Source: a virus
Length of the DNA: 55,574 nt
Direction: 5' to 3' (one strand)
IMG/VR virus record: IMGVR_UViG_3300010885_011380
Coordinates: 1 to 55,574 of that record
This document shows positions 27,027-55,452 of this stretch, piece after piece. The translations under genes were made by a program, and so were the position numbers. A model generated the notes under the pieces. The model saw only the letters and a list, made by a program, of their open reading frames with translations. It made no database searches and was not told where the DNA came from. The stretch's first letter is position 1; the number at the start of each line of letters is the position of its first letter.

Positions 27027-27027
27027 C

Positions 27028-27081: not shown

Positions 27082-27091
27082 TTCGCAAGGG

Positions 27092-27099: not shown

Positions 27100-27129
27100 G
27101 CAGCAAGAACATTCGGGGGAGAAGGCAAC

Positions 27130-28755
27130 ATGGCAGTATTCCAATGGGTCGGCGGCTACACGGCGCACACGGGCTTTATGAGTGGCTACTCGGGCAACTA
27201 CAAAGGCTCGGGCAAGGCTGTTTGGATGAGCGTCTTCAACGGGCTGACGGGCATGTCGGGCGACCGTTCGTTCGCCCCCCACTATTGGGGATTCAAGGAG
27301 AATTGGCGTGAGCGTGTGCCCGCCCCCTCGGATCAGACGCAATGGGAGTACGACTACATCCCCGCCACCCGCCTTCCTAGGGGTGGCGACAAGGTCGTCT
27401 TCGGCTCGGTCTACAACGAAATTCGTGGAGCGGCGTTTGCCGAGCAACTGAGCGCATCCATCTCCCTTCTGTTCGGTGGACTCTCGGGCGGCGAATGGCA
27501 TGATGCGACCTCGGGCAAGACGAGCGACATCGAATTCGAGGTGCATCCGCACTTCGGAGGCAGGTCGAGGGTCACCGACAAGTACATCAACGCCGAGAAC
27601 TACTACGGTGGAGTTGGTCTTGGGGACTACCATTGGTATTGGTCTACGGGTTCGCAAAGCGAGACGCAGGGCAGGATTTGGTATCAGATGCACCGTGGTT
27701 CCATCGGCTTCGATGCCTCGCAGGTATCGGGACAGGCTGCATACGGCTATGGAGCGGTCATCGGTGAGCAAGCGTTCAACTTCACCTTGACGGGCGATAA
27801 AAATGACGGCAACTATCTCGTCGAGACGAACAACTACATCGACCCGCTCGACATCCGCTTCAGCGTGTTCAACAATCGCTCGACTAGGGCGAAGGTGAGG
27901 ATCAAGCAGGTTTCCGCCAACGGTGCCGACTCGATTGCGCAGTTGGTGAACTCGTACTACACCACGCCACTCGACGCACCTGATCCGCAGACCCCGAGCA
28001 TGAACCCTGCGATGGGAACCACGAGCAACACATCGCTCCTGTCGATCTGCGGTCGGGTCGGGAACATCGAACAGGACAACGGCACACTCAAGAGCCTCCG
28101 CTACAAGTCGGTCGGTCTGAGTGCGGACAACATCTACATACGGCAACGACCCGTGGGGCTTTACCTCGACGAAAGCACCACGATCTACTCATCGGTCGTG
28201 GCGGAGCCGAACAAGGCACTCTCGACCCTGTCGATCCATTGCGGTGCGCCGTACCTGAACACGACCCATCGTTTGAACTACCAAGGTTACGCTCCAGGTG
28301 GACCGCCTGGAAACAACAGCGTCGCATTCGGAGCGTCGATAGAGGGCGTGACTTTCGCCGTGGGCAACCGCTACGGTGGAATCGACGGCTACTCATGCAC
28401 CTTCGGTCGTTGGGACACCGAGACTGTCGGCGGTGTCACGAATGCAGCCAACGAGCCTACCCCAAGGGTCTTCATGTACAACCTTGAGGCTACGACCTTC
28501 TACGGCAAGGGCGGCTACCTCAAGACCGCAGCCGATCCGTTCACGGGCTTCCCCGTCTTCAGGGACGGATATCTGCGCAGCAACACGGTGATCGACCTCT
28601 CTAGGCAGGGCGATCCGACCTTCCGCAGCGGCTTGATCGGCAAGTCGGCTGAGGACGAGGGTCTGCGCATGGACAGTTACGATGCTCGGATCATCTTCGC
28701 ACAGGGACAGAACTTCTTGATTGAGAGCAAGGGCGATCCGCAGGGAATCACCTAA
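27130..28755 (+). CDS. Triplicated virion-like protein, copy 2
   Basis: 541 residues. N-terminus AVFQWVGGYT is identical to copy 3, followed by SGYSGNYKGSGKAVW and the LPRGGDKVVFG motif. The C-terminus FPVFRDGYLRSNTVIDLSRQGDP and EDEGLRMDSYDARIIFAQGQN matches the other copies. The middle is diverged, which is the pattern of conserved attachment/assembly ends with a variable core. No known domain recognised. Probably virion surface or fibre-associated; inference only. Confidence 0.6.
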   Translation: MAVFQWVGGYTAHTGFMSGYSGNYKGSGKAVWMSVFNGLTGMSGDRSFAPHYWGFKENWRERVPAPSDQTQWEYDYIPATRLPRGGDKVVFGSVYNEIRGAAFAEQLSASISLLFGGLSGGEWHDATSGKTSDIEFEVHPHFGGRSRVTDKYINAENYYGGVGLGDYHWYWSTGSQSETQGRIWYQMHRGSIGFDASQVSGQAAYGYGAVIGEQAFNFTLTGDKNDGNYLVETNNYIDPLDIRFSVFNNRSTRAKVRIKQVSANGADSIAQLVNSYYTTPLDAPDPQTPSMNPAMGTTSNTSLLSICGRVGNIEQDNGTLKSLRYKSVGLSADNIYIRQRPVGLYLDESTTIYSSVVAEPNKALSTLSIHCGAPYLNTTHRLNYQGYAPGGPPGNNSVAFGASIEGVTFAVGNRYGGIDGYSCTFGRWDTETVGGVTNAANEPTPRVFMYNLEATTFYGKGGYLKTAADPFTGFPVFRDGYLRSNTVIDLSRQGDPTFRSGLIGKSAEDEGLRMDSYDARIIFAQGQNFLIESKGDPQGIT

Positions 28756-28790
28756 TCAACACCAACGATCAGTAGGAAAGGGAACAAGAG

Positions 28791-30410
28791 ATGGCAGTAT
28801 TCCAATGGGTCGGCGGCTACACGGGTCACGAGGGCATCAACAGCGGCTACTCGGGCAACTACGCAGGATCAGGCAAGAAGGTATGGACGAGCGTGTGGAA
28901 TGGTCTGACCACGGATCGTGGCGACTTCGCATTCGCACCGTACCATTGGGACTTCACGCAGAATTGGCGTGAGCGTGTGACTTCGTCAGGGGCACTCATC
29001 CAATACTCGCCATACGACTACATCTCCGCCACCCGACTTCCCCGTGGGGGCGATCAGGTGGTCTTCGGTGCCCCTTGGGTCAGCAACGCAGCCGCAGCCG
29101 ATCTGTTCACGGGAGGACGCACGGAGGTTGACCGCCGTGCCTTGGGAATCTCCTGCCTGTTCGGCGGATGCTCGGGCGCATCGCTGAAGTGGCCTGGTGC
29201 GTCCGATCCTGCAAGCACGGGCGACATTCAGTTCGTCGTGACCGATGACTTCGGGTGGAACCACCTTGCACAGGGAGCCGCTGTGGTCAACCCCGAGAAC
29301 GATACCGAATGGTTCAAGCGGCTCATCGGGGTGGGCTATGCCCGACATTTGGTCGGAACGACCCCGTATGCGGGTTCCATGCTCAAGCGTCTGAGCATCG
29401 GTGAGATCGGCTTCGACTCATCGAAGATCACGGGAAGTGCGAATCCGACCAATCCCGCACAGGGAACCTACATCGGGAAGGATTTCTCGCTGACGGGCTT
29501 CGGATATGTCCTGACGATCAACAAGATCGCTCCCCTGCATCTTCGCTTCAGTTCCTTCAACAACCGTGGACGCAGGTCGAAGGCTCGAATCCGACAATGC
29601 TCCGCAAACGCATCCACCTCGACCGCATCCATCGACGGATGGGAGTCCCTCGTCCGTGTGATGAGTAACAACTCCACTAGCCCGATTGCGGGCGAGACGG
29701 GAAACGATTCCACGCTCCTCGTCTGCGGTCAGGTTGAAAGCATCGTTCAGAACCAAGGCTTCTTCGGCAACCTCGACCACACGGGCAACACCAACCTCGT
29801 CGTGCAAAAGGTGAATTCCAACGAGAACATCTATGGAATGCACTTGGGCAACACCGTCCAAATCATCACATCGGTTGTCTGCCAACCCAAGGCTTCGTTC
29901 AGCCCGATCAACATCTACTGTGGTGCAAGCGTCCTTGACACCAAGCACGACACCGATCAGAGGGTTGGCTACCGTGGCAGGGAGGATGGCGTGAACCGCC
30001 CGTACCGCATGACCTACCGCATCGGCTCCCTCACGGGAGTCGCAGTCGGAATCGGCACATGGACTTGCGAGTCGTTTGGTCCCACCTCGACCAACCGTTT
30101 CGCTGAACCCACCCCGAAGGTCGAGATGAACTCGTTCATCTGCGACGACTTCTACGGCAAGGGCGGCTACCTCAAGGCATCGGATATGGCGACACAGACC
30201 ACCAATCCCGTCTTCAGGGATGGCTTCCTCAAGAAGGACACCTTCCTCGACCTCAACAAGTCGGGCGACCCGAACTTCAGGAACAGTCTGATCGGCTACA
30301 GTCCTTCGGACGAGGGTCTGCGCATGGACAGCCCTCTCGCCCGTGTCGTGTTCAATCTCGGTGACAATGTGCGGACGAACGGCAGCGGCGATCCGAACAG
30401 CGAAACCTGA
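28791..30410 (+). CDS. Triplicated virion-like protein, copy 3
   Basis: 539 residues, closest to copy 2. Shared parts: AVFQWVGGYTG, SGYSGNYAGSGKKVW, YDYISATRLPRGGDQVVFG, and the C-terminal PVFRDGFLKKDTFLDLNKSGDP with IGYSPSDEGLRMDSPLARV. The start of the coding sequence is the same as in copy 2 at DNA level for over 30 bases, suggesting recent duplication or gene conversion. No late motif directly upstream, so it is probably co-transcribed with copy 2. It ends 3 bases from a convergent minus-strand gene. Confidence 0.6.
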   Translation: MAVFQWVGGYTGHEGINSGYSGNYAGSGKKVWTSVWNGLTTDRGDFAFAPYHWDFTQNWRERVTSSGALIQYSPYDYISATRLPRGGDQVVFGAPWVSNAAAADLFTGGRTEVDRRALGISCLFGGCSGASLKWPGASDPASTGDIQFVVTDDFGWNHLAQGAAVVNPENDTEWFKRLIGVGYARHLVGTTPYAGSMLKRLSIGEIGFDSSKITGSANPTNPAQGTYIGKDFSLTGFGYVLTINKIAPLHLRFSSFNNRGRRSKARIRQCSANASTSTASIDGWESLVRVMSNNSTSPIAGETGNDSTLLVCGQVESIVQNQGFFGNLDHTGNTNLVVQKVNSNENIYGMHLGNTVQIITSVVCQPKASFSPINIYCGASVLDTKHDTDQRVGYRGREDGVNRPYRMTYRIGSLTGVAVGIGTWTCESFGPTSTNRFAEPTPKVEMNSFICDDFYGKGGYLKASDMATQTTNPVFRDGFLKKDTFLDLNKSGDPNFRNSLIGYSPSDEGLRMDSPLARVVFNLGDNVRTNGSGDPNSET

Positions 30411-37723: not shown

Positions 37724-38392
37724 ATGTCACACAAGTCACATTCGACCTGTCCGACCTGCGCCCGCATCTGCGACGATGCGAAGGCTGAAGCCAAGCGGCT
37801 GAACAAGAAGGTCTATGCCATGACCATCGCCTTGACCTCGGCGTTGACCTTGCTTGGCAAGGAAGCCGCTGAGGAGGTCATCGCTTATGTCAAGGTCGTG
37901 CAAGATAGCACCGATTCGGGGGGAGGCGAGTCTGCGGGTGCAAATTCTGCCACCGCTGCATCCTCGGACGGTGCCGATCATCCTGAACCGAGGACACGAC
38001 CGTTCATCCACAAAGAATCAACCCCTTCGGCTGACCAATCCACCGAAGCCGCCAAGGACAAGTCGAACTCGCAGGTCGGGCTGTCTGCCCCGAGGACGGC
38101 ACTCGACAAGCAACTCATGGATGCCGTGAACGGCAAGATGCCGTCGATGGGCGAGTTGGTGGAGATGCCTGTCTTGGTGCCGAAGAGCCGCCGTGCCGAT
38201 TCGGACGGGCTTGCCATGTACTACGATGTCGATCCATACAGGGACAACACCGTCATCGACCCGAATGCACGGTTCGTCACGGATTCCCCCTTCGGTGGCT
38301 ACCCCCAAGACGATGTTCCCGCCGATCTGCCCGCACCCACAACGGTAGCCGTGCTAGGGATCGTTCCCCTGATCGGCTCCCGCCGACGATGA
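37724..38392 (+). CDS. Exported protein with PEP-CTERM-like C-terminus, copy A
   Basis: 222 residues; the ATG 37724 has GGGGGAA six bases upstream. A CPTCARICDD pair of cysteines and a hydrophobic stretch (VYAMTIALTSALTLLG) lie near the N-terminus. The middle is low-complexity Ser/Ala/Glu. The end is LPAPTTVAVLGIVPLIGSRRR, that is a PAP motif, a hydrophobic helix and a terminal Arg cluster, the exosortase sorting layout. The signal peptide is less typical than in the two neighbours. It may be a virion- or host-surface-directed protein; no enzyme motif. Confidence 0.6.
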   Translation: MSHKSHSTCPTCARICDDAKAEAKRLNKKVYAMTIALTSALTLLGKEAAEEVIAYVKVVQDSTDSGGGESAGANSATAASSDGADHPEPRTRPFIHKESTPSADQSTEAAKDKSNSQVGLSAPRTALDKQLMDAVNGKMPSMGELVEMPVLVPKSRRADSDGLAMYYDVDPYRDNTVIDPNARFVTDSPFGGYPQDDVPADLPAPTTVAVLGIVPLIGSRRR

Positions 38393-38415
38393 ATCAACCA
38401 ACTAGGAGAAAGAAA

Positions 38416-39045
38416 ATGTGTAAGGTTTTTCTTACGAGCGTTGTTGCCGCAGGACTTGCTTCGACCGCCACCGCCGACCTCGTTGACGGCTCATTCGAGA
38501 GCCTCGACGCATGGGGATACGGCTTCTTCCAAGGAGGCATCGACACTCCGTGGCTGACCACCGCACCCGACAACCTGATCGAAGGGTGGTCGAGCGGATT
38601 CCTCGGAGTCCCCGCCTATGACGGCTTGAGGTTCGTGGAACTCAATGCGAACTACACCTCGACCCTGTATCAGGATGTGAACGGACTCGGGGACTTCAAC
38701 ACGATCAATTGGCACTTCGCCCACCGTGGTCGTGACGGACTCGACACGATGCGCCTCACGATCACCGATCTCGGCTTCGATCAGGCATGGGGCGGTGGCG
38801 ACGACACGGAAATCTACACGGGGGTCTTCTCCGCCGACAACACGGCGTGGCAAGTCCACTACGGCAGCATCGTCTCCATCGGCAACCTCACCCGCTTCGC
38901 CTTCGAGGCGGTGGATGCGGTCGGTGGATCGACGCAGGGCAACTTCATCGACTACTGCGGATTCGGCGTGAACGCCGTGCCCGCCCCGTCCGTGGTCGCT
39001 TTGATCGGCATCGGCGGATTGATCGTTCGCACCCGCCGCAGGTAA
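38416..39045 (+). CDS. Secreted PEP-CTERM-like protein, copy B
   Basis: 209 residues; AGGAG before ATG 38416. Clear signal peptide KVFLTSVVAAGLASTATA cut near residue 20, mature N-terminus DLVDGSFESLD. The mature part is a jelly-roll-like beta domain typical of PEP-CTERM proteins (FVELNANYTSTLYQDV, TMRLTITDLGFDQAWGGGD). It ends VPAPSVVALIGIGGLIVRTRRR: PAP, hydrophobic helix, Arg cluster. Such proteins are sorted by host exosortase and placed on the surface. An exosortase-target protein in a phage is unusual; this is either a host-derived cargo gene or a cell-surface modifier. Confidence 0.8.
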   Translation: MCKVFLTSVVAAGLASTATADLVDGSFESLDAWGYGFFQGGIDTPWLTTAPDNLIEGWSSGFLGVPAYDGLRFVELNANYTSTLYQDVNGLGDFNTINWHFAHRGRDGLDTMRLTITDLGFDQAWGGGDDTEIYTGVFSADNTAWQVHYGSIVSIGNLTRFAFEAVDAVGGSTQGNFIDYCGFGVNAVPAPSVVALIGIGGLIVRTRRR

Positions 39046-39053
39046 AAATGAAA

Positions 39054-39084
39054 GCCGCCCGATGCCGTGCTGACACCGAGCGGC
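39054..39084. terminator. Shared terminator of converging PEP-CTERM-like genes
   Basis: GCCGCTCGGTG pairs with CATCGGGCGGC (two G-U) on the minus strand and is followed by TTTCATTTTT; on the plus strand the same hairpin follows the stop of copy B. Probably bidirectional, stronger on minus. Confidence 0.6.
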
Positions 39085-39103
39085 AGGAAGTTGGATCGGA
39101 TGA

Positions 39104-39784
39104 TCAGCGGCGGCGGCGACCGACGATGCCCGCAAGCCCGAGGAGGGCAAGCGCACCAGGGGCAGGGACAGCCCCGCCGCTGTAGGTGAAGTTGTCGAGG
39201 GCGATGGCGGCACCCGTGTTGGTGCTGAACTCGACACGGGTCACTTCCATGCCCGTGTTGAACGAGCGGAACTGACCCACGGCGTACTCGACTTGCGTCG
39301 AAAGCGAGTACACCGCCGTGTCACCGACGAATCCCGTGACGGTGAGGATGCTGTAGTCACGCTCGTCGCCGTCGAAGTTGAAGTCGTCCTCTCCACGCAA
39401 TACCTGCGTGATGAACGCACCCTCGAACATGAACGCCTCCGTTCGGGCGATGCTGAATGCGTAGTCCTCGTTCGCACCCCACGGGGTGAACAAGGCACGG
39501 GAGCCGATGATGCCCTCGTCGAATCCGCCGAAGGTCGATCCCGCCCTCATCTTGTAGTAGCCCCACCGCCCGTCGAAGATGTCGGGCAGGTCGTTCTGCG
39601 AGTAGTGGTTGCTAGTGAAGGTGAAGCCGCCGTAGTTCGGGGCAAGCGATGCCACCTTGAGGTTCTGACCGACCTCGACCGTGGGGGTCGGCAAGTCCTC
39701 GAAGGTGAGCATCTCGGCATTGACGGGGACGACCGCAGAGGCGATCACGGTGGCGGCGAACAGGTTGTATGCGAAAGTCTTCAT
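39104..39784 (-). CDS. Secreted PEP-CTERM protein, copy C
   Basis: 226 residues; AGAGGA before ATG 39784. Signal peptide FAYNLFAATVIASAVVPVNA, mature start EMLTFEDLPT. Beta-rich mature domain (NYGGFTFTSNHYSQNDLPD, MFEGAFITQVLRGEDDFNFDGDERDYSI, ALDNFTYSGG). The C-terminus VPAPGALALLGLAGIVGRRRR is a textbook PEP-CTERM tail, in a form widespread in Phycisphaerae-like Planctomycetota. Convergent with copy B. Strong support that the phage host has an exosortase system. Confidence 0.85.
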   Translation of the reverse strand: MKTFAYNLFAATVIASAVVPVNAEMLTFEDLPTPTVEVGQNLKVASLAPNYGGFTFTSNHYSQNDLPDIFDGRWGYYKMRAGSTFGGFDEGIIGSRALFTPWGANEDYAFSIARTEAFMFEGAFITQVLRGEDDFNFDGDERDYSILTVTGFVGDTAVYSLSTQVEYAVGQFRSFNTGMEVTRVEFSTNTGAAIALDNFTYSGGAVPAPGALALLGLAGIVGRRRR

Positions 39785-45101: not shown

Positions 45102-47546
45102 TCACTTGCTGATCAGTTCAGCGACCCGCACGAGGAGCGGTCGGTTGCCCTTCCGCTTGCGGAGGAGGGCATCGGTCGCCGCCGCCGCATCCTCCGTGCC
45201 GTGCTGCTCCCCGCTGCCTGAGAGGCTGATCCCGATGTACTCGTCGTACCCGCCCGCCTTGCGGATTGCGCTCCACCCGTCCTTCCGCCAACGGGCGACG
45301 AACTCGTCGGCAAGCCTCGTCCGCATCTCGGGGGTCATTGCGGCTCCCTTGTCGTCCACCTGCATGACGCAGACCGCCCGATGTGCGGTGCTGCGAACCT
45401 CGTACTCGTCGGTGAGGCTCATGCAGATCGCCTTGCCGCCGACACGGTCGTGGAAGATGTCGAGAAGCACCTTCGTCTCCATGAGCGAGGAAGGCTCGTG
45501 GGGCGAGAAGGAGTTCGTCTTGTCGTTCGGCACGAGGTAGTCGTTGCCCGTGCGGGGATCGTGCCACACCATGTACGGGGTGTTGTCGGGCTTCACGGAG
45601 GCGAACTTGTTGCAGTACTCCACCGTGCTGCGGTTCGCTCTCACCAAGCGGTCGTTCGGATCGCCGTCCGTCAGCACGACGAGGTTCACCAACTGAAGGT
45701 TGCGGGAACGCTTGAAGTCCTCGCAGACCTTGAGCATCCCGAGGAGTGCGCTGTTGAGTGGCGTGTCGCCCATCAAGAGCCAATTCGGGATCATGCTCAT
45801 CGTCGGGCTGAAGGGGATCTTCGCCGCCTTGCAGAACGCCGACACGGGAGCCTGCGCCCGCACGGAAGAAGTCTCCTCCACGATGTGCGACCCGACGAGG
45901 AGAAGCCCACAAGCCTCCACGAAGTCACGCTGCGCCATCCCGTCCTGAAGCAGGGTCACGACCCTGTTGCCGATGAACTCGCCGCCGAAGTTGCCCTTGG
46001 CGAAGGAACCGCCCTTGACGGCGATCTCCCTGTTCTCACGGGAGGTGAAGCCGTAGATGCGGAACGGCTTGTTCGCACGGCGGCAGAAGTGCGCAAGCAT
46101 GATCGCTTGGCTCATCGACTCGTAGAACAACTTGCGGTCGGGCATCGAAGCACTCATGTCGATCAGCATCACCATGCCGTGGTTCTGACCGTCAGCGACC
46201 GTCTCGGTGCGGAGGAAGATGTCCTCGCTCACACGGTACGCATGGAGGCGGCTCATGTCGATCACGCCCGAATCGGAGGTCGCCGTGCGGCGGAACTCGT
46301 TCGCAGCCTTACGGAGGTCGAACTCGGTGCCGAGCATCATCACCGAAGCCCTGTTCTGCCGCAGCCACTCGGGGTAGTAAAGGCGGGCGATCTCACCGAT
46401 GGTGCAGGTCGTCTTGCCGTCCCCTGAAAGGCGACTGCCCATCGAACGCAGGTCTGCGAGTGTCGTGGAGATGTCCAAGGTGAACCCATTGGTCGGCTCG
46501 GGGATCGTGCAGTAGTGGAGGTCGTTCTTGCCCTGACTCACGCAGGACTCGACCGCAGCCTGAATCGAAGCATCAATCAGGGAGTCGAGCGAGGAATCGT
46601 CGGCATCGACGGACTTGTCATCCTTCTCGCCCTTGACCTCGTCGTCCCCCTGCGGATCGGCATCGGCATCGGACTCGCCTTCGGCATCGTCGGACTCACC
46701 TTCGGCATCATCGGATTCGGCATCGGCATCGTCCGACTCGCTCTCGCCCTCCTCGCCTTCGCCCTCGCCATCCTCATCGACCTCCACCGACATCTCCTCT
46801 TCGCCGCCCTCGCCGTCTTCCTGATCCTCGGGCTTCTCGCTCCCATCACCCTTCTCGCTCTTCTGCGACTTCGACTTGCCGCTCTCCTGATCCTCCTCGC
46901 CTTCCTGCGGGAGATCGGAGTCTTGCTGCTTGGCGAAGTCGTAGATTTCCTTCGTGAGGGCGACGACCTCGTCCCATGTCTCGGTTTCAGCGACACGGTT
47001 GACGAGAGGCATCTCCTCACGCTTGAACGGCACGGAGATGAACGCACCCTGCTTGTAGTGGATCAGGATGCGGTCGATGAGGTTGAGGTCGGCAAGGCTC
47101 TTGCCTTGGGCGGCGAGTTTCCGCAAGCCGCAGAAGTCGGCGGTCGTCCACCACTCGTACATAAGGTAGAAGAACCGCTTCGCACCTGGCAGCGACCGCT
47201 TGATCATGCGTTCGATGCGCATATCCTCGACCACATTGAGGTAGTGGTGGACACGCTTGGCGTTCTTGGGGTTTGGGTCGATGCGCTGCATGGCATCGGA
47301 GATCGCCGTGCCCTGCGGCGTGTAGAGAGCATGACCGATCTCGTGGAGGAGGAACCCGTCATGGATATCCTCGGGGACATTCAGGACGGGCATCTTGAGG
47401 AGGGGCATCTCGCCCTTCTGCGACGGGTAGAACTGCGCCGTCTTCGCCGTGGGGCTGTACTCGACCCGAAGATGTTGGGACGAGAGGAAGTTCGCCAGTC
47501 GCCGCTTGCGGGCGATGTAGGCGAAAGTCGGCAGGGTGTTGGTCAT
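45102..47546 (-). CDS. CobT-like protein: HExxH metallopeptidase-like and VWA domains
   Basis: 814 residues. The N-terminal domain has LHEIGH (zinc motif H68-E-I-G-H72) and NVVEDMRIE (about 104-112) as the third conserved block of the VWA-associated peptidase family. A Ser/Asp/Glu linker (~215-320) contains SDDAEGE repeats. The VWA domain shows MIDAS LIDMSASM (D463, S465, S467), a GDTPLNSAL threonine loop and VLTDGDPND. The arrangement matches cobalt-chelatase CobT-like proteins that work with MoxR/CobS AAA+ ATPases, which T4-like marine phages often carry elsewhere. Likely role is remodelling or protease function on an unknown target, not cobalamin synthesis. Confidence 0.85.
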   Translation of the reverse strand: MTNTLPTFAYIARKRRLANFLSSQHLRVEYSPTAKTAQFYPSQKGEMPLLKMPVLNVPEDIHDGFLLHEIGHALYTPQGTAISDAMQRIDPNPKNAKRVHHYLNVVEDMRIERMIKRSLPGAKRFFYLMYEWWTTADFCGLRKLAAQGKSLADLNLIDRILIHYKQGAFISVPFKREEMPLVNRVAETETWDEVVALTKEIYDFAKQQDSDLPQEGEEDQESGKSKSQKSEKGDGSEKPEDQEDGEGGEEEMSVEVDEDGEGEGEEGESESDDADAESDDAEGESDDAEGESDADADPQGDDEVKGEKDDKSVDADDSSLDSLIDASIQAAVESCVSQGKNDLHYCTIPEPTNGFTLDISTTLADLRSMGSRLSGDGKTTCTIGEIARLYYPEWLRQNRASVMMLGTEFDLRKAANEFRRTATSDSGVIDMSRLHAYRVSEDIFLRTETVADGQNHGMVMLIDMSASMPDRKLFYESMSQAIMLAHFCRRANKPFRIYGFTSRENREIAVKGGSFAKGNFGGEFIGNRVVTLLQDGMAQRDFVEACGLLLVGSHIVEETSSVRAQAPVSAFCKAAKIPFSPTMSMIPNWLLMGDTPLNSALLGMLKVCEDFKRSRNLQLVNLVVLTDGDPNDRLVRANRSTVEYCNKFASVKPDNTPYMVWHDPRTGNDYLVPNDKTNSFSPHEPSSLMETKVLLDIFHDRVGGKAICMSLTDEYEVRSTAHRAVCVMQVDDKGAAMTPEMRTRLADEFVARWRKDGWSAIRKAGGYDEYIGISLSGSGEQHGTEDAAAATDALLRKRKGNRPLLVRVAELISK

Positions 47547-47631: not shown

Positions 47632-47639
47632 GATAAATA
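47632..47639 (+). promoter_or_regulatory. Late promoter motif GATAAATA
   Basis: Upstream of the first gene of the right-hand plus-strand island. Confidence 0.65.
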
Positions 47640-47705: not shown

Positions 47706-48455
47706 ATGAAAGACTTCCACGAACTTGTACGCACGATCACCGAATCGGTCAAGGTGACCTTCGGCAAGCCCGAGCGGTTCCGAGGCAAACTCGAAGGCAG
47801 GTCGATCAGGATTCCGATCCTGCTAGGCAACCTCGAAATTGGTGAGATCAAAGCGGATTTCGAGGTGCATGGTCGGACTGCCACGAGCCGTGGGGCGGGA
47901 TACGAGGTCATCGACGGGTATTCGGTCGAGTACATGGATGCCCGTCTGAGGGGTCAAGAGCAAGCCGACAGCGTCAGGGTCGGGGGACAGTTCGACTCTG
48001 CTCCGAAGGCTCTCAACGAGGTCAAGCGGCGTGTAGCCGCCCGTGTCGCCGCCCTAGACGCTCCCCCCGAGGGAGTGTCCGTGAGGAAGGTTCCGACTCT
48101 GCGAGAGCGTCTCAAGGGCGATCCGAAGGCATGGGCGCATTGGTCGTATGTCGAGGTCGTGTTGCCGCAGATGGCTGCGGGTGCGCCCGTGCGTCCTCCC
48201 GTGCGCCCCGATGTCGCAGGTGTACTCAGTTGGAGCGATGGCATGGATTCGTGGCTTGCCTACAGAATCCTGCGGGAGGCGATCCTACGCCTGACAAATC
48301 AGCGTCACGAGGCACCGTTCGCCTCGCAGATGAAGCACCTCGCCAAGGAGATATCGGACGAGGTGACGGATTCGACTGCCACCCAAATCGCCGCAGCGGT
48401 GTCGAGGGGGATCGCCCGATTCAACAAGATTCGTTCGATGATGGAGCAAGCATGA
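47706..48455 (+). CDS. Putative packaged (internal head) protein A
   Basis: 249 residues, unrecognised body. I chose ATG 47706 (GGAG four bases upstream); an earlier ATG at 47661 lies too near the late motif. The N-terminus KDFHELVRTITE|S resembles the T4 capsid-targeting leader KTYQEFIAE|A: basic residue, aromatic, Glu, hydrophobic, then an I-T-E protease site. The body is a beta-rich domain (RIPILLGNLEIGEIKADFEV) and helices (LAYRILREAILRL, AAVSRGIARFNKIRSMMEQA). Late expression and leader suggest incorporation in the prohead; activity unknown. Confidence 0.5.
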   Translation: MKDFHELVRTITESVKVTFGKPERFRGKLEGRSIRIPILLGNLEIGEIKADFEVHGRTATSRGAGYEVIDGYSVEYMDARLRGQEQADSVRVGGQFDSAPKALNEVKRRVAARVAALDAPPEGVSVRKVPTLRERLKGDPKAWAHWSYVEVVLPQMAAGAPVRPPVRPDVAGVLSWSDGMDSWLAYRILREAILRLTNQRHEAPFASQMKHLAKEISDEVTDSTATQIAAAVSRGIARFNKIRSMMEQA

Positions 48456-49096
48456 TACCGAACGCCGAACCGCACCCCGACGATCTCCCGAAGCCCAATC
48501 CGCTCTACACGGTGCCGATGGGCTACCTCTCCACGCACGGGCTGTTGCAGGACGGGTACATCCGCATCCTCAAGCCGTTGGCTCCGCACTCGTTCTGTTG
48601 GGACATCGACGGCACGGTCGCTTCGGTCGAATCGGGTCTGAAGTATGTCGGATCGGGCAGCATCAAGCGGCGAGGCTCCTATGCCTCCACCTACAAGGTG
48701 GTGGTGAGGACGAACCTAGGTTGGTCGGCATGGGGCACGGTTGGCAATCCCGAGAAGGGCGACTCTCCGCTGAAGGTCGGGGACACGGTGCGGCTGAAGT
48801 CGTTCCGACCCCAAGCATTCGAGAATGGGAGAGGGCAGTATTCGACCGTCATGTATCGAAACCAATACGGCACGAAGTTGTCGGGTGTCCTCACGAAGCA
48901 GAACCGACCGCCGTACTACCGACTGCCTCTGTTCGATCTCGTGCCGAACCGCACGGTCGAATTGCAGGTGCGGATGAGCAAGGTCGAGTGGTACGAGACG
49001 ATCCAATGGGACAAGTCCAAGAAGCAATGGACGCTGTGCCAAGGCAGCAAGTGGGTGCCGTTGGCTCCGAATGCCCCGCAACTCCTAGATAGATGA
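48452..49096 (+). CDS. Hypothetical late protein B
   Basis: 214 residues, start coupled to the previous stop (ATGA). Beta-rich domain with no recognised family (GYIRILKPLAPHSFCWDIDG, STYKVVVRTNLGWSAWGTVGN, VGDTVRLKSFRPQAF, NRTVELQVRMSKVEWYETI). It lacks the leader seen in its neighbours. Co-expressed with proteins A and C, so probably part of the same packaged or late module. Confidence 0.5.
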   Translation: MIPNAEPHPDDLPKPNPLYTVPMGYLSTHGLLQDGYIRILKPLAPHSFCWDIDGTVASVESGLKYVGSGSIKRRGSYASTYKVVVRTNLGWSAWGTVGNPEKGDSPLKVGDTVRLKSFRPQAFENGRGQYSTVMYRNQYGTKLSGVLTKQNRPPYYRLPLFDLVPNRTVELQVRMSKVEWYETIQWDKSKKQWTLCQGSKWVPLAPNAPQLLDR

Positions 49097-49108
49097 TTGG
49101 AGATTCGC

Positions 49109-50158
49109 ATGAGCAACTACTTCGACGGCACCGACCGCAACCGCAGGAACATCCCCCATTTCGGGCTTCGGGGTGATCGCATTCAGCCCTCCACGAAGGC
49201 TCTGACTGAGGCTTTGGCGAATCCTCTGACCGAGGCGAAGGAATACATCCTGTGGGCGATTCCCAAGGGCGAGACGGATGCACTCCATGCGCAGCCGATC
49301 TACACGCAGGGCAAGTCGATGGCGGATGTCGAGCGTGTGAAGGGATTGGCTGCGAAAGAAGGATGGCATTCATTCAAGGTGCAGACCCTCGACATATCCG
49401 AGCCGTTCGATGCCGCTCAGGCGTTCCGCAAGGCGATCAATCCCCCGTCGAGGTGGCGCAAACCGTCAGGCACGAAGCGTGAGTCCGTCGAGGTCAACGA
49501 GGCGGTCACGCCGAGCGACGGTGGCGACAGGAAGGCTGCAAGCATCCGTGTCAAGAACGACATCGGCAAGCAGTTGTCGAACACGCAGTACGCTATGACC
49601 CAACTGAAGGCTGACTTCGACAAGATGGTCGCCGCATATGCTCGTGGCGACGAGGCTGTCGCCCGTGACCTCAAGTCGTCGTGCATCACCTATGTCGAGT
49701 CGCTCAAGATTTGGCTCGACAGGCTCAACGGCGAGTTCCGTGCGATGGCGTTGGAGTACATGGAGCCGACCGCACCGATCCGAGGCGGCACGAACCCGAT
49801 GCAGCCGTCTGCACCCAAGAAGTCAGCCGTGCCGAACCACCCCGTCAAGGTGGGGGATGTGTGGGTGGCGACTTTCGGCTACGACGAGACTCACATCCTC
49901 TTCTATGTCGTGACGAAGGTCACGACAAGCGGGGCGTACTTCGCCAAGTGCGGCAAGACCAACACGGGCAAGTCCTACGGGATGTTCAGCACCGAGGTCG
50001 TGCCCGACCCGAAGGTGGTCGTGGGTGAGCCGAAGTTGAGCAAGATCAAGATGCACGGAGACATGAGGTACGGCAAGGGCATGTACGCAAACATCGACGG
50101 GCAGCATGCGATCCCGTGGGACGGCAAGCCGCAGGACGAGCGCAGGGGATTCCATTGA
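49109..50158 (+). CDS. Putative packaged protein C, with domain shared with next gene
   Basis: 349 residues; GGAG before ATG 49109. The N-terminal 50 residues contain ALTE|ALANPLTE|AKEY, two L-T-E|A sites like gp21 targets, and a third, ESVEVNE|AV, near residue 130. A helical middle (KADFDKMVAAYARGDEAVARDLKSSCITYVESLKIWLDRLNGEFRAMALEY) precedes the C-terminal domain VKVGDVWVATFGYDETHILFYVVTKV..AIPWDGKP, which is repeated in the following gene. Suggests a proprotein cut into domains in the head. Function of the GYD domain is unknown. Confidence 0.5.
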   Translation: MSNYFDGTDRNRRNIPHFGLRGDRIQPSTKALTEALANPLTEAKEYILWAIPKGETDALHAQPIYTQGKSMADVERVKGLAAKEGWHSFKVQTLDISEPFDAAQAFRKAINPPSRWRKPSGTKRESVEVNEAVTPSDGGDRKAASIRVKNDIGKQLSNTQYAMTQLKADFDKMVAAYARGDEAVARDLKSSCITYVESLKIWLDRLNGEFRAMALEYMEPTAPIRGGTNPMQPSAPKKSAVPNHPVKVGDVWVATFGYDETHILFYVVTKVTTSGAYFAKCGKTNTGKSYGMFSTEVVPDPKVVVGEPKLSKIKMHGDMRYGKGMYANIDGQHAIPWDGKPQDERRGFH

Positions 50159-50175
50159 CCGAGAGGGAGAGAAGC

Positions 50176-50577
50176 ATGAACTTCAACGAGAATTGGGACG
50201 GAATCGTCAGGAACCGAACGGTGGTCGAGGAGGCGCAGAAGCACTCCGTCAAGGTGGGCGACATCTTCTACACCTCGTGGGGATACGATCAGACCAACAC
50301 CGAGTTCTACATCGTCACGAAGGTGGCGGGTGGAAGCGTGGTCACGGTCGAGATCGAATCCACCGAGGAAAGACAAGGCGGGATGCCCTACGACATGCAC
50401 GGCAAGGTAGTCCCGCATCCGTCGAAGAAACCCGTTCAGGGGGCAGTACCCAAGAGGTCGGTCGTGCGGATCGACTACAAGGGTGAACCGACGATCAAGG
50501 TTCAGGATCGGATGGGTTCCGTCCACGGTGCCTATCCGTGGGACGGCAAGCCGAAGCATGTCACCCACTACGCATGA
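50176..50577 (+). CDS. GYDQTN-domain protein D
   Basis: 133 residues; AGAGAG site before ATG 50176. A single domain paralogous to the C-terminus of protein C: VKVGDIFYTSWGYDQTNTEFYIVTKVAGG, VVP, and AYPWDGKPKHVTHYA. Domains of this GYDQTN-FY type occur in many phage and bacterial proteins of unknown role. The first 20 residues contain VVEE|AQ, another possible protease site. Confidence 0.6.
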   Translation: MNFNENWDGIVRNRTVVEEAQKHSVKVGDIFYTSWGYDQTNTEFYIVTKVAGGSVVTVEIESTEERQGGMPYDMHGKVVPHPSKKPVQGAVPKRSVVRIDYKGEPTIKVQDRMGSVHGAYPWDGKPKHVTHYA

Positions 50578-50602
50578 GGCACGGATGGGAAAGGATGGCA
50601 CG

Positions 50603-51304
50603 GTGAAGGACTTCCACGAACTCGCACGGCAGATTGAGATCATCGAAATGAGTAATCCGAACAGGAGCATCGCTAGTGCCCGTGAGTCGCAGCGTCGAGC
50701 CGAGCGGTTCGCAAGCCAACAGACCGCAATGATCGGTCAGAGGATCGCTGCGGGCAAGGCTGTGCGTGGCAGGATCGACCTCATCAAGGACTTCGGCGTG
50801 AGCAGTTGGTCGGCGTTCGGACTCTCGCAAGCGTCGAATGACGAAGCCATGAACCGAGTCCTCATGTCGGTCGGCACCTCGCTTGCCGATTGGCAGTCGA
50901 GGGTGAATCAGTACTACTCGCACAAGCCCGAACGCTCCGAGAAGGAACGGAAGGTGGAGGGCAAGGCTCTTGATGCGTATCAGAAGAACGCATACATGAG
51001 GCTTCTTGCTCCGCATGCGAGGAAGATCGCAGATGCCTACATGCAGTCGTGCATCGCCCGTGGGATCGAATGGCGGCTCGTTGCCGATCCCTACTACGAC
51101 CTCAAGGACATCTATGTGAGGTATCAAGGCACCCCGCACGAGCGCAGGGATCGGAACGATGCGTCCGAACTGATCCGCATCCTCGAAACCTATCTAAAGA
51201 CGAACAGCCCGAGTTTCAACAAGGACAAGAAAGCGGTCAGCCAACTCGCCCTCCACAAACTCGCCGTGAACATCGTCCGATGGGTCATTGAGAACCCGAA
51301 CTGA
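50603..51304 (+). CDS. Putative packaged protein E
   Basis: 233 residues. I chose GTG 50603: it has AAAGGA seven bases upstream, and it gives the N-terminus KDFHELARQIEIIE, matching protein A's KDFHELVRT and the T4 capsid-targeting leader; ATG 50585 would add six residues before it. The body is helical (SARESQRRAERFASQQTAMIGQRIAAGKAVRGRIDLIKDFG, DAYQKNAYMRLLAPHARKIADAYMQSCIARGIEWRL). The 3' end overlaps the convergent gene by 20 bases. No family recognised. Confidence 0.5.
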   Translation: MKDFHELARQIEIIEMSNPNRSIASARESQRRAERFASQQTAMIGQRIAAGKAVRGRIDLIKDFGVSSWSAFGLSQASNDEAMNRVLMSVGTSLADWQSRVNQYYSHKPERSEKERKVEGKALDAYQKNAYMRLLAPHARKIADAYMQSCIARGIEWRLVADPYYDLKDIYVRYQGTPHERRDRNDASELIRILETYLKTNSPSFNKDKKAVSQLALHKLAVNIVRWVIENPN

Positions 51305-51641
51305 TCGGGCGGTACGACTTCGTCCAAGTCTTCTCGTCGGAGAACGCCACCCACAGAACCCGTGCGGATTCCTTGGGCAGGACATCGGTCTTCAACTCGC
51401 TCCACAGCGCACCCGTGCGGCGGATGTGGTGGACGGAATGGCGGACTTCGATGCGCCCGCTAGGGAGTTCGATGAACGCCACCCACCGCCGATCCTCTGC
51501 GCCGTCGAGTCCGCACCTGCGCATGAGCATGACATGGAAGGTCACCTGCGGGTCTTGGTCGAGCAGCACCCTGCGGAGGAAAACCTCGACCCCCTCTTCG
51601 GGGGTCTTCGGGTCGTTGTCGTTGGTGCGTGTGAGCGGCAT
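51285..51641 (-). CDS. Hypothetical protein
   Basis: 118 residues from ATG 51641. Mixed alpha/beta, beta-hairpin containing (PQVTFHVMLMRRCGLDGAEDRRWVAFIELPSGRIEVRHSVHHI), C-terminus SARVLWVAFSDEKTWTKSYRPIS. Tail-to-tail overlap of 20 bases with protein E. Not recognised. Confidence 0.55.
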   Translation of the reverse strand: MPLTRTNDNDPKTPEEGVEVFLRRVLLDQDPQVTFHVMLMRRCGLDGAEDRRWVAFIELPSGRIEVRHSVHHIRRTGALWSELKTDVLPKESARVLWVAFSDEKTWTKSYRPISSGSQ

Positions 51642-51655
51642 GGTCAGTCTCCCGA

Positions 51656-52063
51656 TCAGAGGTTCTTCACCTTCGCATTGGCGAAGAGGAAGCGGTCGTT
51701 GCCGTAGGCGGTATGCCACGACCACTCGACATACTCAGGTCGATGGTGGCGGTTGGTCACGCATCCCTCTTCGGTGTCGATGACACGGATGCCACGGACG
51801 ATCTCCGTCTCGTCGGCACGGAAGCGGGCGACCTTCGGGTCGCTGCGAATGTACGAGGTCACGGCAACCACGGCGATGGTGACCGACTTGCCCGTGACCT
51901 TGCGGTCGATCACGGTGACGAGGGTGCGAAACTCGCCCCCGTCCGTGCGCTGACGCTTGTACAGATAGGTCTGACCGACCTCGAAGCGGGGCTTGACTCC
52001 CTTGCGGTCGTTGACACGGGTCTTGGCGGTAAACGGGTCGAGGGTCTTGGTCGTGCGGGGCAT
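51656..52063 (-). CDS. Hypothetical protein, Tudor/SH3-like beta pattern
   Basis: 135 residues with the leader AAGGAGATTCAGCCATG, the same as the 35893-36177 gene. Beta pattern PRFEVGQTYLYKRQRTDGGEFRTLVTVIDRKVTGKSVTIAVVAVTSYIRSDPKVARFRADETEIVRGIRVIDTEEG like SH3-type domains. First gene of a unit with the promoter at 52084-52111. Confidence 0.6.
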   Translation of the reverse strand: MPRTTKTLDPFTAKTRVNDRKGVKPRFEVGQTYLYKRQRTDGGEFRTLVTVIDRKVTGKSVTIAVVAVTSYIRSDPKVARFRADETEIVRGIRVIDTEEGCVTNRHHRPEYVEWSWHTAYGNDRFLFANAKVKNL

Positions 52064-52083
52064 GGCTGAATCTCCTTACTGAC

Positions 52084-52111
52084 ATTGTGCGATATGGCGC
52101 AAGCAAGTCAA
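52084..52111 (-). promoter_or_regulatory. Early-type promoter TTGACT-N16-CACAAT
   Basis: -35 at 52106-52111, -10 at 52084-52089; drives the 51656-52063 gene. Confidence 0.6.
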
Positions 52112-52145
52112 GCAAAAGATAGCATTCCGTCCGTGACCGATAATC

Positions 52146-52460
52146 CTATGTGGGAATGCTTGCGGGTTGCTGCACGAATCCTTGGGCGACGAGGTCGTTC
52201 CATAGGTCACGGGCGGCGATCCGAATCAGGTGCTTCTTCCATGAGGATGTGAAGGTTATGTCCTCATGCTCCCATCCATCGGGGAGGACGAGGTCGGTGG
52301 GGGGCTTCCACCGCCAACTGATCATTCCCTCCCTAATCGACCACATCATCACCCCCACGGGGGACTCGGGTCGGAGCGTATCGACGGAGAACTCGAAGGT
52401 GACGCTGCGCTGCGAGTGGTGGAGCCTGTATCTGCGTCGGTTGAGCGGACTCAAGTCCAT
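52146..52460 (-). CDS. Hypothetical protein
   Basis: 104 residues. Basic N-terminus, beta segments SVTFEFSVDTLRPESPVGVMMWSIREGMISWRWKPP and a C-terminal helix (LIRIAARDLWNDLVAQGFVQ). It follows a small gene by three bases. No recognised family. Confidence 0.5.
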   Translation of the reverse strand: MDLSPLNRRRYRLHHSQRSVTFEFSVDTLRPESPVGVMMWSIREGMISWRWKPPTDLVLPDGWEHEDITFTSSWKKHLIRIAARDLWNDLVAQGFVQQPASIPT

Positions 52461-52463
52461 GCG

Positions 52464-52649
52464 TCACTTGCCTTTCTTTCGTCGCTTGGTCGGCTCGGTC
52501 GGCTTGGGTGCGTTCCCGTTCCTCTCGTCAACCACACCCTGCCTGTAGCCGCCCGTGGACTTGAAGACGGTCTGCAACGGGATCGACTTGTCCCTTGCCA
52601 TCTCCATCGCACGGTATGCGTCGAGTTCCCGTCTGCTTTCCTCGTTCAT
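52464..52649 (-). CDS. Small basic protein
   Basis: 61 residues from ATG 52649, with GGGAGG upstream. Charged helix NEESRRELDAYRAMEMARDKSIPLQTV and a basic end KPTEPTKRRKKGK. Coupled to the upstream gene by a four-base overlap. Unrecognised; nucleic-acid binding is possible from charge. Confidence 0.5.
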   Translation of the reverse strand: MNEESRRELDAYRAMEMARDKSIPLQTVFKSTGGYRQGVVDERNGNAPKPTEPTKRRKKGK

Positions 52650-52906
52650 CCCGCCTCCCCGTAGCAGTCCCAACCCCGCATCCTCGCTTCGATCTCGGGA
52701 GTCCTATCGGGATATGAGGTTCGGTTGCAGATTTCCTTGCGAACCTCGTCCCGCTCCGCACGGAGTCGGTGAATCCTGTTCGACAATGCCTCCACCGTTC
52801 GCATGAGGGAGTCACGCTCGGCGGTGAGTCGGGCTACGGCGAGGGTCAATTCTTGGTTGCGCATGAGGATGTCCTCGGGTTCCATGCTGTTCATCGGCAC
52901 CATCAT
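52646..52906 (-). CDS. Coiled-coil protein
   Basis: 86 residues from ATG 52906 (AGAGG upstream). Heptad-type helix EDILMRNQELTLAVARLTAERDSLMRTVEALSNRIHRLRAERDEVRKEI, then a short Pro/Asp tail. Divergent from protein F, sharing a 50-base intergenic region. Confidence 0.55.
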   Translation of the reverse strand: MMVPMNSMEPEDILMRNQELTLAVARLTAERDSLMRTVEALSNRIHRLRAERDEVRKEICNRTSYPDRTPEIEARMRGWDCYGEAG

Positions 52907-52922
52907 ATCGCCTCTTCCGTTT

Positions 52923-52930
52923 GCTAAATA
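52923..52930 (+). promoter_or_regulatory. Late promoter motif GCTAAATA
   Basis: 26 bases before protein F, followed by AGGAG. Confidence 0.75.
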
Positions 52931-52955
52931 CGACAGATTCACAGGAGATCGGCGC

Positions 52956-54959
52956 ATGATTCGTGACGACAACGGCAAGTTCGTTTGGGGCGGATGGCTC
53001 AAGCCCTATCAGTACATCCTCGAAGAGGCATCCCCCGACACCGTTTCCGAGGGATACGAAGGCACGGTCAACGCCGCCTTGGAGAAGGCGGGCATGAAGG
53101 ACGGCACCTACCGATGGAAGGGTGGAGTCCTCTATGTCGAGAAGTCGCAGATCAAGAGGGCGAAGGCGATCATCGGTCGGACGAAGGCAATCCACGAGGT
53201 TCCCGAGATTCGACCGATGGATCAGTACTCCACGAAGGAAGGGATCGAAGAGTCCATCGGCACCTTGGGCATGGTCATGGCGATCAGGCTCCACAAGTGC
53301 GGGCAGAAGCACAGGATGGCAATCAAGGGTGCGATCCGTGACCTCGAATCGTTCGGTTCCAAGATCGACCCCGTGCTGTTCGATGCAAAGTCGAGCCTCG
53401 ACCACCTAGTAGCCGCCCTGTTGCTCCACGAGAGTTTCATCAAGAACGACCCGAAGATGGCGGCGGAGGTCGAGAATCACTTCAACAAGGCGTTCTATGC
53501 GATCCGTGACTTCATCTCTCACACGAAGCCGAGCGAGGTGACGCTGCAACCGCAGTACGCCGCCGCCGTGAAGGTCGAAAAGGCATTGGTCGCCATGAAG
53601 AACTGCACCAAGACCATGAGGACTGAGTCGGTCGAGGAAGCCGATGCGATGACCGAGGCGACCACGGACATGAATCGCATTTCACGGAAGATCGCTGATG
53701 TGGTGAACACGATGGCGGGGGATGCATACGACGAAGACTACATTCCCCACATGCAAGCATACTCGGGCAGGGCGATGTACGGGAAGTACTGCCTCGGCGT
53801 GAGCGTGGGTCGTTACGGTCAAAGCGAATTGCTGAAGGCGTTCAAGAAGAACCGCATTCCCAACCCATCACAGGATCAACTCGGCATGGGTGCCATCTAC
53901 TATTGGCAGAACATCCCATACGATCCTGCAATTCACAAGAATTTGCATAGCAAGGACGAGAGCGTCGATCATGGGGTCGATGCCCTGACCGAGGCATTTC
54001 GGTTGCAGGATTGGGCGAGATTCAAAGCACAATACCCAAGCCCGACTCCTATCCGAATCGTCACCAAGGATCGAAAGGTGATTGATGGACGCATCAAGTC
54101 GATTCAGCGGTATGACCAAGGGTCTGCCGTTGGATACTACATAACGCTCCATCCTAGAAAACAAGGCGAAGATTCAATTGTCATCGACGATGTCGATGTG
54201 ATGAATGTCTACTTCGGTGACGATGCCATCAGGATGCGTGTTATCGCCAAGCGACTCACACAGTACCCAAGCAAGTTGAGGGCTGAGTCGGTCGAGGTGA
54301 CCGAAGCCGTGAGTGCGAACAAGGAGTTCCGCCTGAACAGGGTCAAGGAGAACCAAGCGAGGATCGACAGGATCAAGGCGTACATCCAAGCGAAGGGACT
54401 GCCTCCCGAACTGAAGGACACGGTCGGCGGTCGTCTGCCGTGGCTCACCACCTACAACCAAACGCTAGGCACGGAGGAGTACCTCAAGCAGGGCGCAAGC
54501 GCATGGCTGAACTTCGAGGGTCTGTATGTCGGTCGTGAACTCAACCGCATCGTGAATGTCCTCAAGCACCACGGCATCGTGATCCCGTACTTGGAGTCCG
54601 TGAAGATCGGCGGTTCGCTGACCGAGAACGACAGGATGGCTTTCTTCAAGGACTCGCCCCCGATGCAGTTGAAGAAGGGCAAGAAGTACGCCTTGGGATT
54701 CATCCTCGTGACGGTGAAGGACGGGGGCACCCCCTACCGCAGCGGCGACTACTCGACCAACGGGGTTTCCTACATGGTCGAGTTCCCGCATCCTGCGGAT
54801 GTGCGGAACATCGTCAAGGGAACGCTTTCGATGGAGCCGAACGGGGCGTGTAGGCTCATGGTCGGCGCAATGGTGATTGCCCAAGCCACGAGGGGCGGCT
54901 TCGGGCATGTGATCCCCACCGAACACTACGATTGGTTCCTCAAGCACTACCGCAGTTGA
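52956..54959 (+). CDS. Large putative packaged protein F
   Basis: 667 residues, largest of the late island. The N-terminus has WLKPYQYILEE|ASPDT, close to the T4 leader KTYQEFIAE|AS, ending in an L-x-E|A site. Internal sites of the same type occur as ESVEEADAMTE|AT and ESVEVTE|AV, possibly separating domains. Segments: YEGTVNAALEKAGMKDGTYRWKGG, a helical domain (LHKCGQKHRMAIKGAIRDLESFG), and later VTEAVSANKEFRLNRVKENQARIDRIKAYIQAKGLPPELKD. The C-terminal domain is compact (ALGFILVTVKDGGTPYRSGDYSTNGVSYMVEFPHP). No catalytic motif recognised. Candidate multi-domain proprotein carried in the head. Confidence 0.55.
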   Translation: MIRDDNGKFVWGGWLKPYQYILEEASPDTVSEGYEGTVNAALEKAGMKDGTYRWKGGVLYVEKSQIKRAKAIIGRTKAIHEVPEIRPMDQYSTKEGIEESIGTLGMVMAIRLHKCGQKHRMAIKGAIRDLESFGSKIDPVLFDAKSSLDHLVAALLLHESFIKNDPKMAAEVENHFNKAFYAIRDFISHTKPSEVTLQPQYAAAVKVEKALVAMKNCTKTMRTESVEEADAMTEATTDMNRISRKIADVVNTMAGDAYDEDYIPHMQAYSGRAMYGKYCLGVSVGRYGQSELLKAFKKNRIPNPSQDQLGMGAIYYWQNIPYDPAIHKNLHSKDESVDHGVDALTEAFRLQDWARFKAQYPSPTPIRIVTKDRKVIDGRIKSIQRYDQGSAVGYYITLHPRKQGEDSIVIDDVDVMNVYFGDDAIRMRVIAKRLTQYPSKLRAESVEVTEAVSANKEFRLNRVKENQARIDRIKAYIQAKGLPPELKDTVGGRLPWLTTYNQTLGTEEYLKQGASAWLNFEGLYVGRELNRIVNVLKHHGIVIPYLESVKIGGSLTENDRMAFFKDSPPMQLKKGKKYALGFILVTVKDGGTPYRSGDYSTNGVSYMVEFPHPADVRNIVKGTLSMEPNGACRLMVGAMVIAQATRGGFGHVIPTEHYDWFLKHYRS

Positions 54960-54974
54960 CTGACGGCATGGGTT

Positions 54975-54982
54975 CCTAAATA
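54975..54982 (+). promoter_or_regulatory. Late promoter motif CCTAAATA
   Basis: Lies 17 bases before protein G's ATG 55000. Confidence 0.65.
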
Positions 54983-54999
54983 TGGAAACAGGAGGACGG

Positions 55000-55452
55000 A
55001 TGGAAAAGAGAATCTACGGATACAGGTCGGGCATCGGTCGGTACGAGTACCTGCTTGAGGAGGCGAAAAAGGCGGTCGATACGCTGTACAGCATTGAGGA
55101 GTCCGCCGCTCCTCTCGTCGAGAGCCTCGACGCATACCTGTATGTCGTGCCGCCCAAACCTTCACCTGAGCGGGTTTGGGACAGGAATGTCACCCACAAC
55201 AACGCCAAGATTTGCGGTGCGGTCGATCCCCAACTGTACAAACTTCTTTGGAATTCCCCGCCCACCCCCGCCAAGAGTCTGATCCCTAGGCTCAAGGCGG
55301 CGATAGCGAAGATGGAGGGCAACATGGATAGGTACAGGAAACTCGACCCGCCGAGTGGGTGGGGCGGTGCCGACGATCTCCTCCTCTTCCTCAAGGACTT
55401 GCACTCCGCTTGCATTCGGAACCCAACGGCGACCTACGAAGCCCACGGCTGA
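55000..55452 (+). CDS. Putative packaged protein G
   Basis: 150 residues from ATG 55000, which has GGAGG close upstream; ATG 54982 overlaps the late motif and is rejected. The N-terminus EKRIYGYRSGIGRYEYLLEE|AKKAV again has aromatic residues, LLEE and an L-x-E|A site. The body is helical (DTLYSIEESAAPLVESLDAYLYVV, SLIPRLKAAIAKMEGNMDRYRKL, DDLLLFLKDLHSACIRN). Late expression; function unknown. Confidence 0.5.
   Translation: MEKRIYGYRSGIGRYEYLLEEAKKAVDTLYSIEESAAPLVESLDAYLYVVPPKPSPERVWDRNVTHNNAKICGAVDPQLYKLLWNSPPTPAKSLIPRLKAAIAKMEGNMDRYRKLDPPSGWGGADDLLLFLKDLHSACIRNPTATYEAHG

Follow-up and report, generated by a model that had tools for sequence, protein, structure and literature searches.

The internal proteins IPI–IPIII and Alt of phage T4 have leaders with the spacing aromatic-xx-hydrophobic-(I/L)-x-E, which are cut after the glutamate by the head protease gp21, and genetics backs both the leader step and the cutting step in T4 (PMC9026906). 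In the present study we analyzed 55,574 bases of the virus record IMGVR_UViG_3300010885_011380 (hereafter the window), a fragment of a T4-like myovirus, in which an island of plus-strand genes at 47.7–55.4 kb encodes proteins with candidate leaders, two of them of the same spacing, and a gp21-type protease is encoded elsewhere in the window. Late expression and non-structural cargo, as far as can be read from the sequence, are likewise features that the island shares with T4. Differently from T4, where each leader precedes one protein, two island chains comprise several domains, which are set apart by protease-like sites. In sequence, the cargo domains show no relation to IPI–IPIII or Alt (no Pfam or PHROGs match of the mature parts to these families); the two systems would work alike without being homologous.

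Three other described systems resemble the island in part. Polyvalent proteins (Iyer et al. 2017, PMC5512222) are likewise multidomain, mosaic and likely delivered with the DNA; their processing is assigned to an in-chain peptidase (zincin-like, rarely assemblin-like), whereas a separate head protease and repeated linker sites are proposed here, and neither the window proteins nor the chains of the related contigs L082 and L088 gave a curated-cutoff Pfam match, a recognizable in-chain peptidase or a known polyvalent domain. In the giant phages SPN3US and phiKZ, many head proteins bear propeptides, which a protease distantly homologous to gp21 (gp245/gp175) removes by cutting after Glu; the system is known mainly for this removal, and the freeing of several folded modules through repeated linkers was not found for them in the literature searched. 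Finally, virion enzymes of T4-like cyanophages (NMNAT, kinases and SAM hydrolase) have similar leaders and, in S-SCSM1, multi-site neighbors (gp89 and gp92) in the same cluster, with cargo domains unlike those of the window. Based on the comparisons below, we consider it probable that the island encodes late-expressed head cargo, whose leaders would target it to the prohead, where the gp21-type protease would cut leaders and linkers, and whose products would be ejected with the DNA. The broader proposal, that head polyproteins made of exchangeable effector domains and a portable capsid-protease-site linker are widespread in phages, capsid maturation freeing the proteins for injection, is one that we favor by a smaller measure.

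The window genes encode a tail sheath, a tail tube, a portal (phrog_213), a scaffold (phrog_237), the major capsid protein (21964–23328, plus strand; phrog_138), through which Pelagibacter phage Mosig was found to be the nearest isolate (65% identity), and the proposed processing enzyme, a gp21-type head maturation protease (20131–20775, plus strand; phrog_207, E=1.6e-75). An earlier note made from the sequence had pointed to LRE↓A at residue 47 of the capsid protein (the arrow marks the predicted cut), and correctly so: Glu47 is kept in 84 of the 85 capsid relatives compared, with mostly L/V/M/I at P3 and mostly A at P1′. The capsid site was used to calibrate, from within the window, what the protease prefers. 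The combination that accompanies the T4 internal proteins, a gp21-type protease and substrates with the same site, is thus encoded in the window by the phrog_207 gene at 20131 and the capsid E47 site.

Leaders with the T4 capsid-targeting spacing were found on two island proteins. One is a candidate polyprotein of 667 residues (52956–54959; ATG start, upstream Shine-Dalgarno-like AGGAG) with KPYQYILEE↓A (full leader MIRDDNGKFVWGGWLKPYQYILEE↓A, predicted cut after residue 24), whose residues 16–25, KPYQYILEEA, agree in register with the T4 sequence KTYQEFIAEA at K, Y, Q, E and A. The other, of 150 residues (55000–55452; ATG start, upstream Shine-Dalgarno-like AGGAGG), has a phrog_4019 domain and the leader GRYEYLLEE↓A (full leader MEKRIYGYRSGIGRYEYLLEE↓A, predicted cut after residue 21). 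The leader MKDFHELVRTITE↓S of a 249-residue protein (47706–48455; ATG start, upstream Shine-Dalgarno-like GGAG) fits the T4-type pattern and was graded plausible, as was MNFNENWDGIVRNRTVVEE↓A on a 133-residue phrog_37844 protein (50176–50577), the counterpart of which in the related contig G049 reads MRSFGDNWDGIVREA. A 233-residue protein with a GTG start (50603–51304) has a weak site, IIE↓M; it has a KDFHEL stretch in common with the 47706 protein, the remainder of the two being dissimilar. In the 349-residue multidomain chain at 49109–50158, LTE↓AKEY was rejected as an N-terminal leader, being an internal site at residues 40–43 with a second LTE↓A at residues 32–35. The C-terminal domain of this linker-bearing chain and the short leadered protein at 50176–50577 are paralogous (phrog_37844, 36% identity). 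Of the five T4-type leaders that the earlier note had proposed, with peptides that are all present in the sequence, those of 52956 and 55000 agree with T4 in spacing, that of 47706 is plausible and that of 50603 is weak, while the 49109 site is not a leader. Pfam and PHROGs yielded no function for the island proteins; for the 47706 protein they gave no family, and a close-relative search of viral contigs gave no homologue.

Besides the leaders, sites of the same kind were found inside two of the chains. In the 49109 protein, an N-terminal extension that contains LTE↓A LANPLTE↓A (predicted cuts after residues 34 and 42) is followed by a mini-domain named KEYILW (residues 44–110), a linker KRESVEVNE↓A (predicted cut after 131), a coiled coil and the C-terminal domain related to phrog_37844. 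In the AlphaFold model of this protein, a small alpha-beta domain has its first strand starting at residue 44, directly behind the site, and the part preceding the site is modelled with low confidence. The modules of the 52956 protein are separated by ESVEEADAMTE↓A (234), ESVDHGVDALTE↓A (346), ESVEVTE↓A (450) and SLTE↓N (557), the predicted internal cuts being spaced 104–112 residues apart. Statistically, [LIVM]TE[AS] occurs six times in the five island proteins (1654 residues) against 0.16 expected and in none of the other window genes, [LIVM].E[AS] 15 times against 3.8, and [LIV].EA nine times against 1.95 (P=0.0005 each, the floor of 2000 shuffles). This enrichment is driven chiefly by 49109 and 52956, and no site excess was found in the 32 genes that belong neither to the island nor to the head cluster. 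Such counts bear on the explanation that the resemblance is fortuitous, with short degenerate motifs lying in ordinary genes whose products never enter the head. The motif is indeed short, and neither the 50603 site nor the strict-leader count of the window rises above chance; nevertheless, the island excess of [LIVM]TE[AS], the retention of E↓A in six contexts and the finding of further linkers and leaders across dozens of contigs, both described below, make a fortuitous origin highly improbable.

The 49109 and 52956 proteins were also used as queries. The 49109 search led to contig L082, where one 1184-residue chain, starting with MNHYQRKILAE↓A and bearing approximately nine linkers, unites modules of two window genes: it is 48% identical to 49109 over the KEYILW domain and 38% identical to 52956 over the C-terminal third of the latter; the 52956 protein and this chain have two stretches in common, of 38% and 54% identity. 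A ParB-type-looking domain, recognized by eye, lies behind MYHYQRVRIAEA in L082, the PHROG matches of which are all unnamed. L082 was the only match of the 52956 C-terminal module; the close-relative search with 52956 gave nothing in viral contigs or isolated phages, and that with 49109 no match in 34 capsid-bearing records. The KEYILW domain, of 75 residues, is freestanding in contigs L083–L085 behind MKTFAQHIREA↓KEY, which closely copies MKTYQEFIAEA of T4, whereas it is preceded by ..ADALTEA↓ within the L082 chain, by ..LTEA↓ in the window, and by ..GLGEA↓ in contig L088, where it is part of a 2481-residue chain. Across six aligned contexts of the domain the columns E42, A43, K44, E45 and Y46 are invariant, the E42↓A43 codons lying at 49232–49237 (plus strand) of the window, at the domain edge. 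Rhodobacter phage RcSalem (Casjensviridae) has the domain without a leader, and tblastn of the L088 and L095 chains against isolated phages gave no match. Contig G049 is close to the window phage (portal 92%, capsid 90% and protease 86% identical) and has its own leader island at the equivalent genomic position, with different cargo. L082 (IMGVR_UViG_3300014720_000036) and G049 (IMGVR_UViG_3300014720_000073), which come from one metagenome and have the leader MNHYQR(K/S)IL(A/S)EA in common, may belong to a single phage or to two that are related.

The linker itself was surveyed with a DNA pattern for ESVEV.EA, which found 51 viral contigs, many of them near-identical and some with single matches that probably arose by chance; the P1′ residue in this survey is partly set by the search pattern. 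In 34 collected proteins the linker occurs 55 times against 0.5 expected, partly by selection, at a spacing of mostly 50–130 residues. In many survey contigs a gene carries several linkers, the number of ESVE elements reaching seven, and one domain is joined to varying neighbors, and multidomain mosaic chains comprise 52956, 49109 and those of L082, L110, L093 and L095. The unit of a tandem duplication in L093 spans one cut site to the next, and 30% of the ends of shared-module alignments have a site no more than five residues away, compared with 11% of random positions. All linker-bearing records of at least 60 kb with clear cases (G041, G042, G045, G050 and G051) have a T4-type capsid protein and a gp21-type protease; since two pairs among them have near-identical linker genes, they amount to approximately three lineages. 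T4-like leaders were found on 36 of 510 genes of the linker contigs against 2.0 expected, redundancy included, while the Mosig genome showed no strict-leader excess (1 of 180 genes, 0.77 expected); leaders of this class thus do not stand out in every T4-like marine phage. The co-occurrence with a T4-type protease and capsid, the shuffling of modules and the conservation at domain edges are direct observations, like the sequence anatomy, late-promoter motifs and site enrichment of the island. As a separate observation, a leadered gene with MLRFGNYLTEQKNTHMTHIEDRVLYGG recurs in L096, L099, L112, L115, L117, L118, L120–L122 and L136, and in several contigs adjoins a gene with linkers and an NMNAT-like gene with a leader; the three likely form a conserved head-cargo cluster.

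The linkers might instead be mere flexible or charged spacers of large, polyvalent-type multidomain proteins that are packaged uncut. Acidic ESVE-type sequence suits flexibility, and the N4 virion RNA polymerase and some other packaged polyvalent proteins are unprocessed (PMC5512222). However, the conserved element is the (L/I/V)-x-E↓A site rather than acidity in general, the same site forms the leader/cargo junction of the KEYILW domain, and the linker co-occurs with a gp21-type protease; a spacer role without cleavage is accordingly rated as rather unlikely, if less so than chance resemblance.

Comparison with cyanophages, for which virion proteins have been reported, further favors the head-cargo interpretation. 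Published virion mass spectrometry of S-CREM2 unexpectedly detected a SAM hydrolase, a kinase, a cytidylyltransferase and a Cas9-like nuclease (PMC10665884). We found that the first three start with MKDFDSFLEE, VKRFDAFLTE and MKNFSSFLTEA, respectively, and two S-CREM2 virion proteins of no assigned role with MKDLHSFLTE and MQTFSMFFSE. When the T4 spacing was looked for in residues 1–14, the leader was present on five of the 26 non-structural or unknown proteins that had been detected and on two of 98 undetected ones (P=0.0045), in a pattern that was fixed after some S-CREM2 N-termini had been seen. The Cas9-like nuclease gp12 (L170, 7704–10313, minus strand) is a sixth, with the T4-like leader RFASFMAEA↓A 17 residues in, which suggests a packaged, possibly injected Cas9-like protein. 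Starts that lay outside this tuning are MKSFLQFLKEA of the S-SCSM1 virion NMNAT and MISFDQFLSE of the S-CRM01 virion kinase, and the S-SCSM1 virion proteins gp89 and gp92 carry the linkers EEVENVDE↓R and EEVELDE↓R (PMC9602691). The S-CREM2 authors left the true virion location of such proteins open and could not exclude contamination, and the accessible parts of the two reports (PMC10665884 and PMC9602691) mention no leader or targeting signal. Within the open-access journal literature, we found no account of cyanophage virion enzymes bearing T4-like leaders, nor of gp21-type linkers between packaged domains. Taking together the KEYILW domain behind a leader elsewhere, the G049 leader island and the leadered or linker-bearing cyanophage virion proteins, packaging and gp21-type trimming of the island proteins are likely, as the earlier note had proposed, although it had overlooked the 50176 leader and the internal linkers.

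A modular head-core gene in the interval between the portal and the protease (17972–19288, plus strand) carries the sites ESVDTDIQE↓K and DIQE↓D. In its G049 counterpart a 97-residue module is present in two copies, each ending in DIQE, while the window gene has the DIQE sites only, and tblastn of the window gene against isolated phages found no match. Similarly, the gene for the 2481-residue chain of L088 lies 2.7 kb upstream of the L088 gp21-type protease gene, with the capsid gene beyond, in a head-gene cluster. That both sit among head genes, and that the core proteins of T4 undergo cleavage at several sites and for the most part exit the head (PMC9026906), would suit an explanation in which leaders and sites are real but belong to structural or scaffold-like components of the prohead core (compare T4 gp67, gp68 and gp22), shredded by the protease and lost rather than delivered. 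The sites, however, lie between modules and not within folds, the modules are also found as freestanding leadered proteins and, without a leader, in a Casjensviridae phage, and the leadered relatives include enzymes (kinase, NMNAT and SAM hydrolase) that were detected in mature virions. A prohead-core role is therefore considered unlikely, though it is the strongest of the three alternatives weighed here.

Head cargo of the T4 type would be expressed late, and the motifs agree with this. CTAAATA occurs nine times in the window against 0.55 expected, mostly immediately 5′ of virion genes, and TAAATA 12 times against 1.87. All plus-strand, TAAATA at 47634–47639 precedes 47706, CTAAATA at 52924–52930 (TAAATA from 52925) precedes 52956, and CTAAATA at 54976–54982 (TAAATA from 54977) precedes 55000, confirming the late motifs that had been reported for three units. 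The late-promoter island at 47.7–55.4 kb is real, and its motifs point to late transcription, as in T4-type internal proteins.

In the proposed mechanism, leaders resembling the T4 capsid-targeting sequence would bring the island proteins into the prohead core, where the gp21-type protease would cut after Glu in (L/I/V/M)-x-E↓(A/S) and remove them. It would also cut 49109 and 52956 at the interdomain linkers (ESVEV[NT]E↓A and ..LTE↓A), so that each chain gives several small folded proteins; the released cargo would remain in the head, most likely be ejected with the DNA, and act early in infection. The linkers may double as recombination joints, by which cargo domains would be swapped between phages. 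The fast cargo turnover between close relatives, together with the defence-related enzymes in cyanophage virions, suggests roles in counter-defence or host takeover, or in metabolism.

Several points weigh against this interpretation, in addition to the redundancy and pattern-set P1′ of the linker survey and the late fixing of the S-CREM2 leader pattern. The strict leader pattern has zero matches in the window, so the leader claim there rests on the looser T4 spacing, the relatives and the internal sites; the looser pattern matches two window genes against 0.57 expected, not clearly above chance. The leaders of 52956 and 55000 begin approximately 15 residues in, unlike the T4 leader, and IIE↓M of 50603 is a poor match to the protease pattern. 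The AlphaFold model of 52956 (mean pLDDT 36.5) is too poor to indicate function, and Foldseek with the 49109 model gave no significant fold match. Packaging and cleavage in the window phage, ejection and function are what we infer from these comparisons.

If this interpretation is correct, it would offer a simple sequence rule for phage proteins carried in the head, which would account for the kinases, NMNAT-like enzymes, SAM hydrolase and Cas9-like nuclease of cyanophage virions. It would also suggest a polyprotein strategy for tailed phages, in which the capsid protease does the processing and recombination joins domains at the linker, and give a handle on injected anti-defence proteins among the uncharacterized genes of T4-like environmental phages.

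Further genes were observed elsewhere in the window. The minus-strand gene at 45102–47543, on the strand opposite to the island, encodes a protein homologous to phrog_459, a ‘peptidase’ family of T4-like phages (E=1.9e-102). At 25650–30410, three adjacent paralogous proteins that start with (Y/F)xWVGGYT(G/A)..G..SGYSGN and have no PHROGs match are probably virion or fibre proteins. Two proteins at 38389–39781 end in PEP-CTERM-like tails (VPAP..GLIVRTRRR and VPAPGALALLGLAGIVGRRRR), with weak NCBIfam matches below the curated cut-offs, and these tails may point to an exosortase-bearing host.

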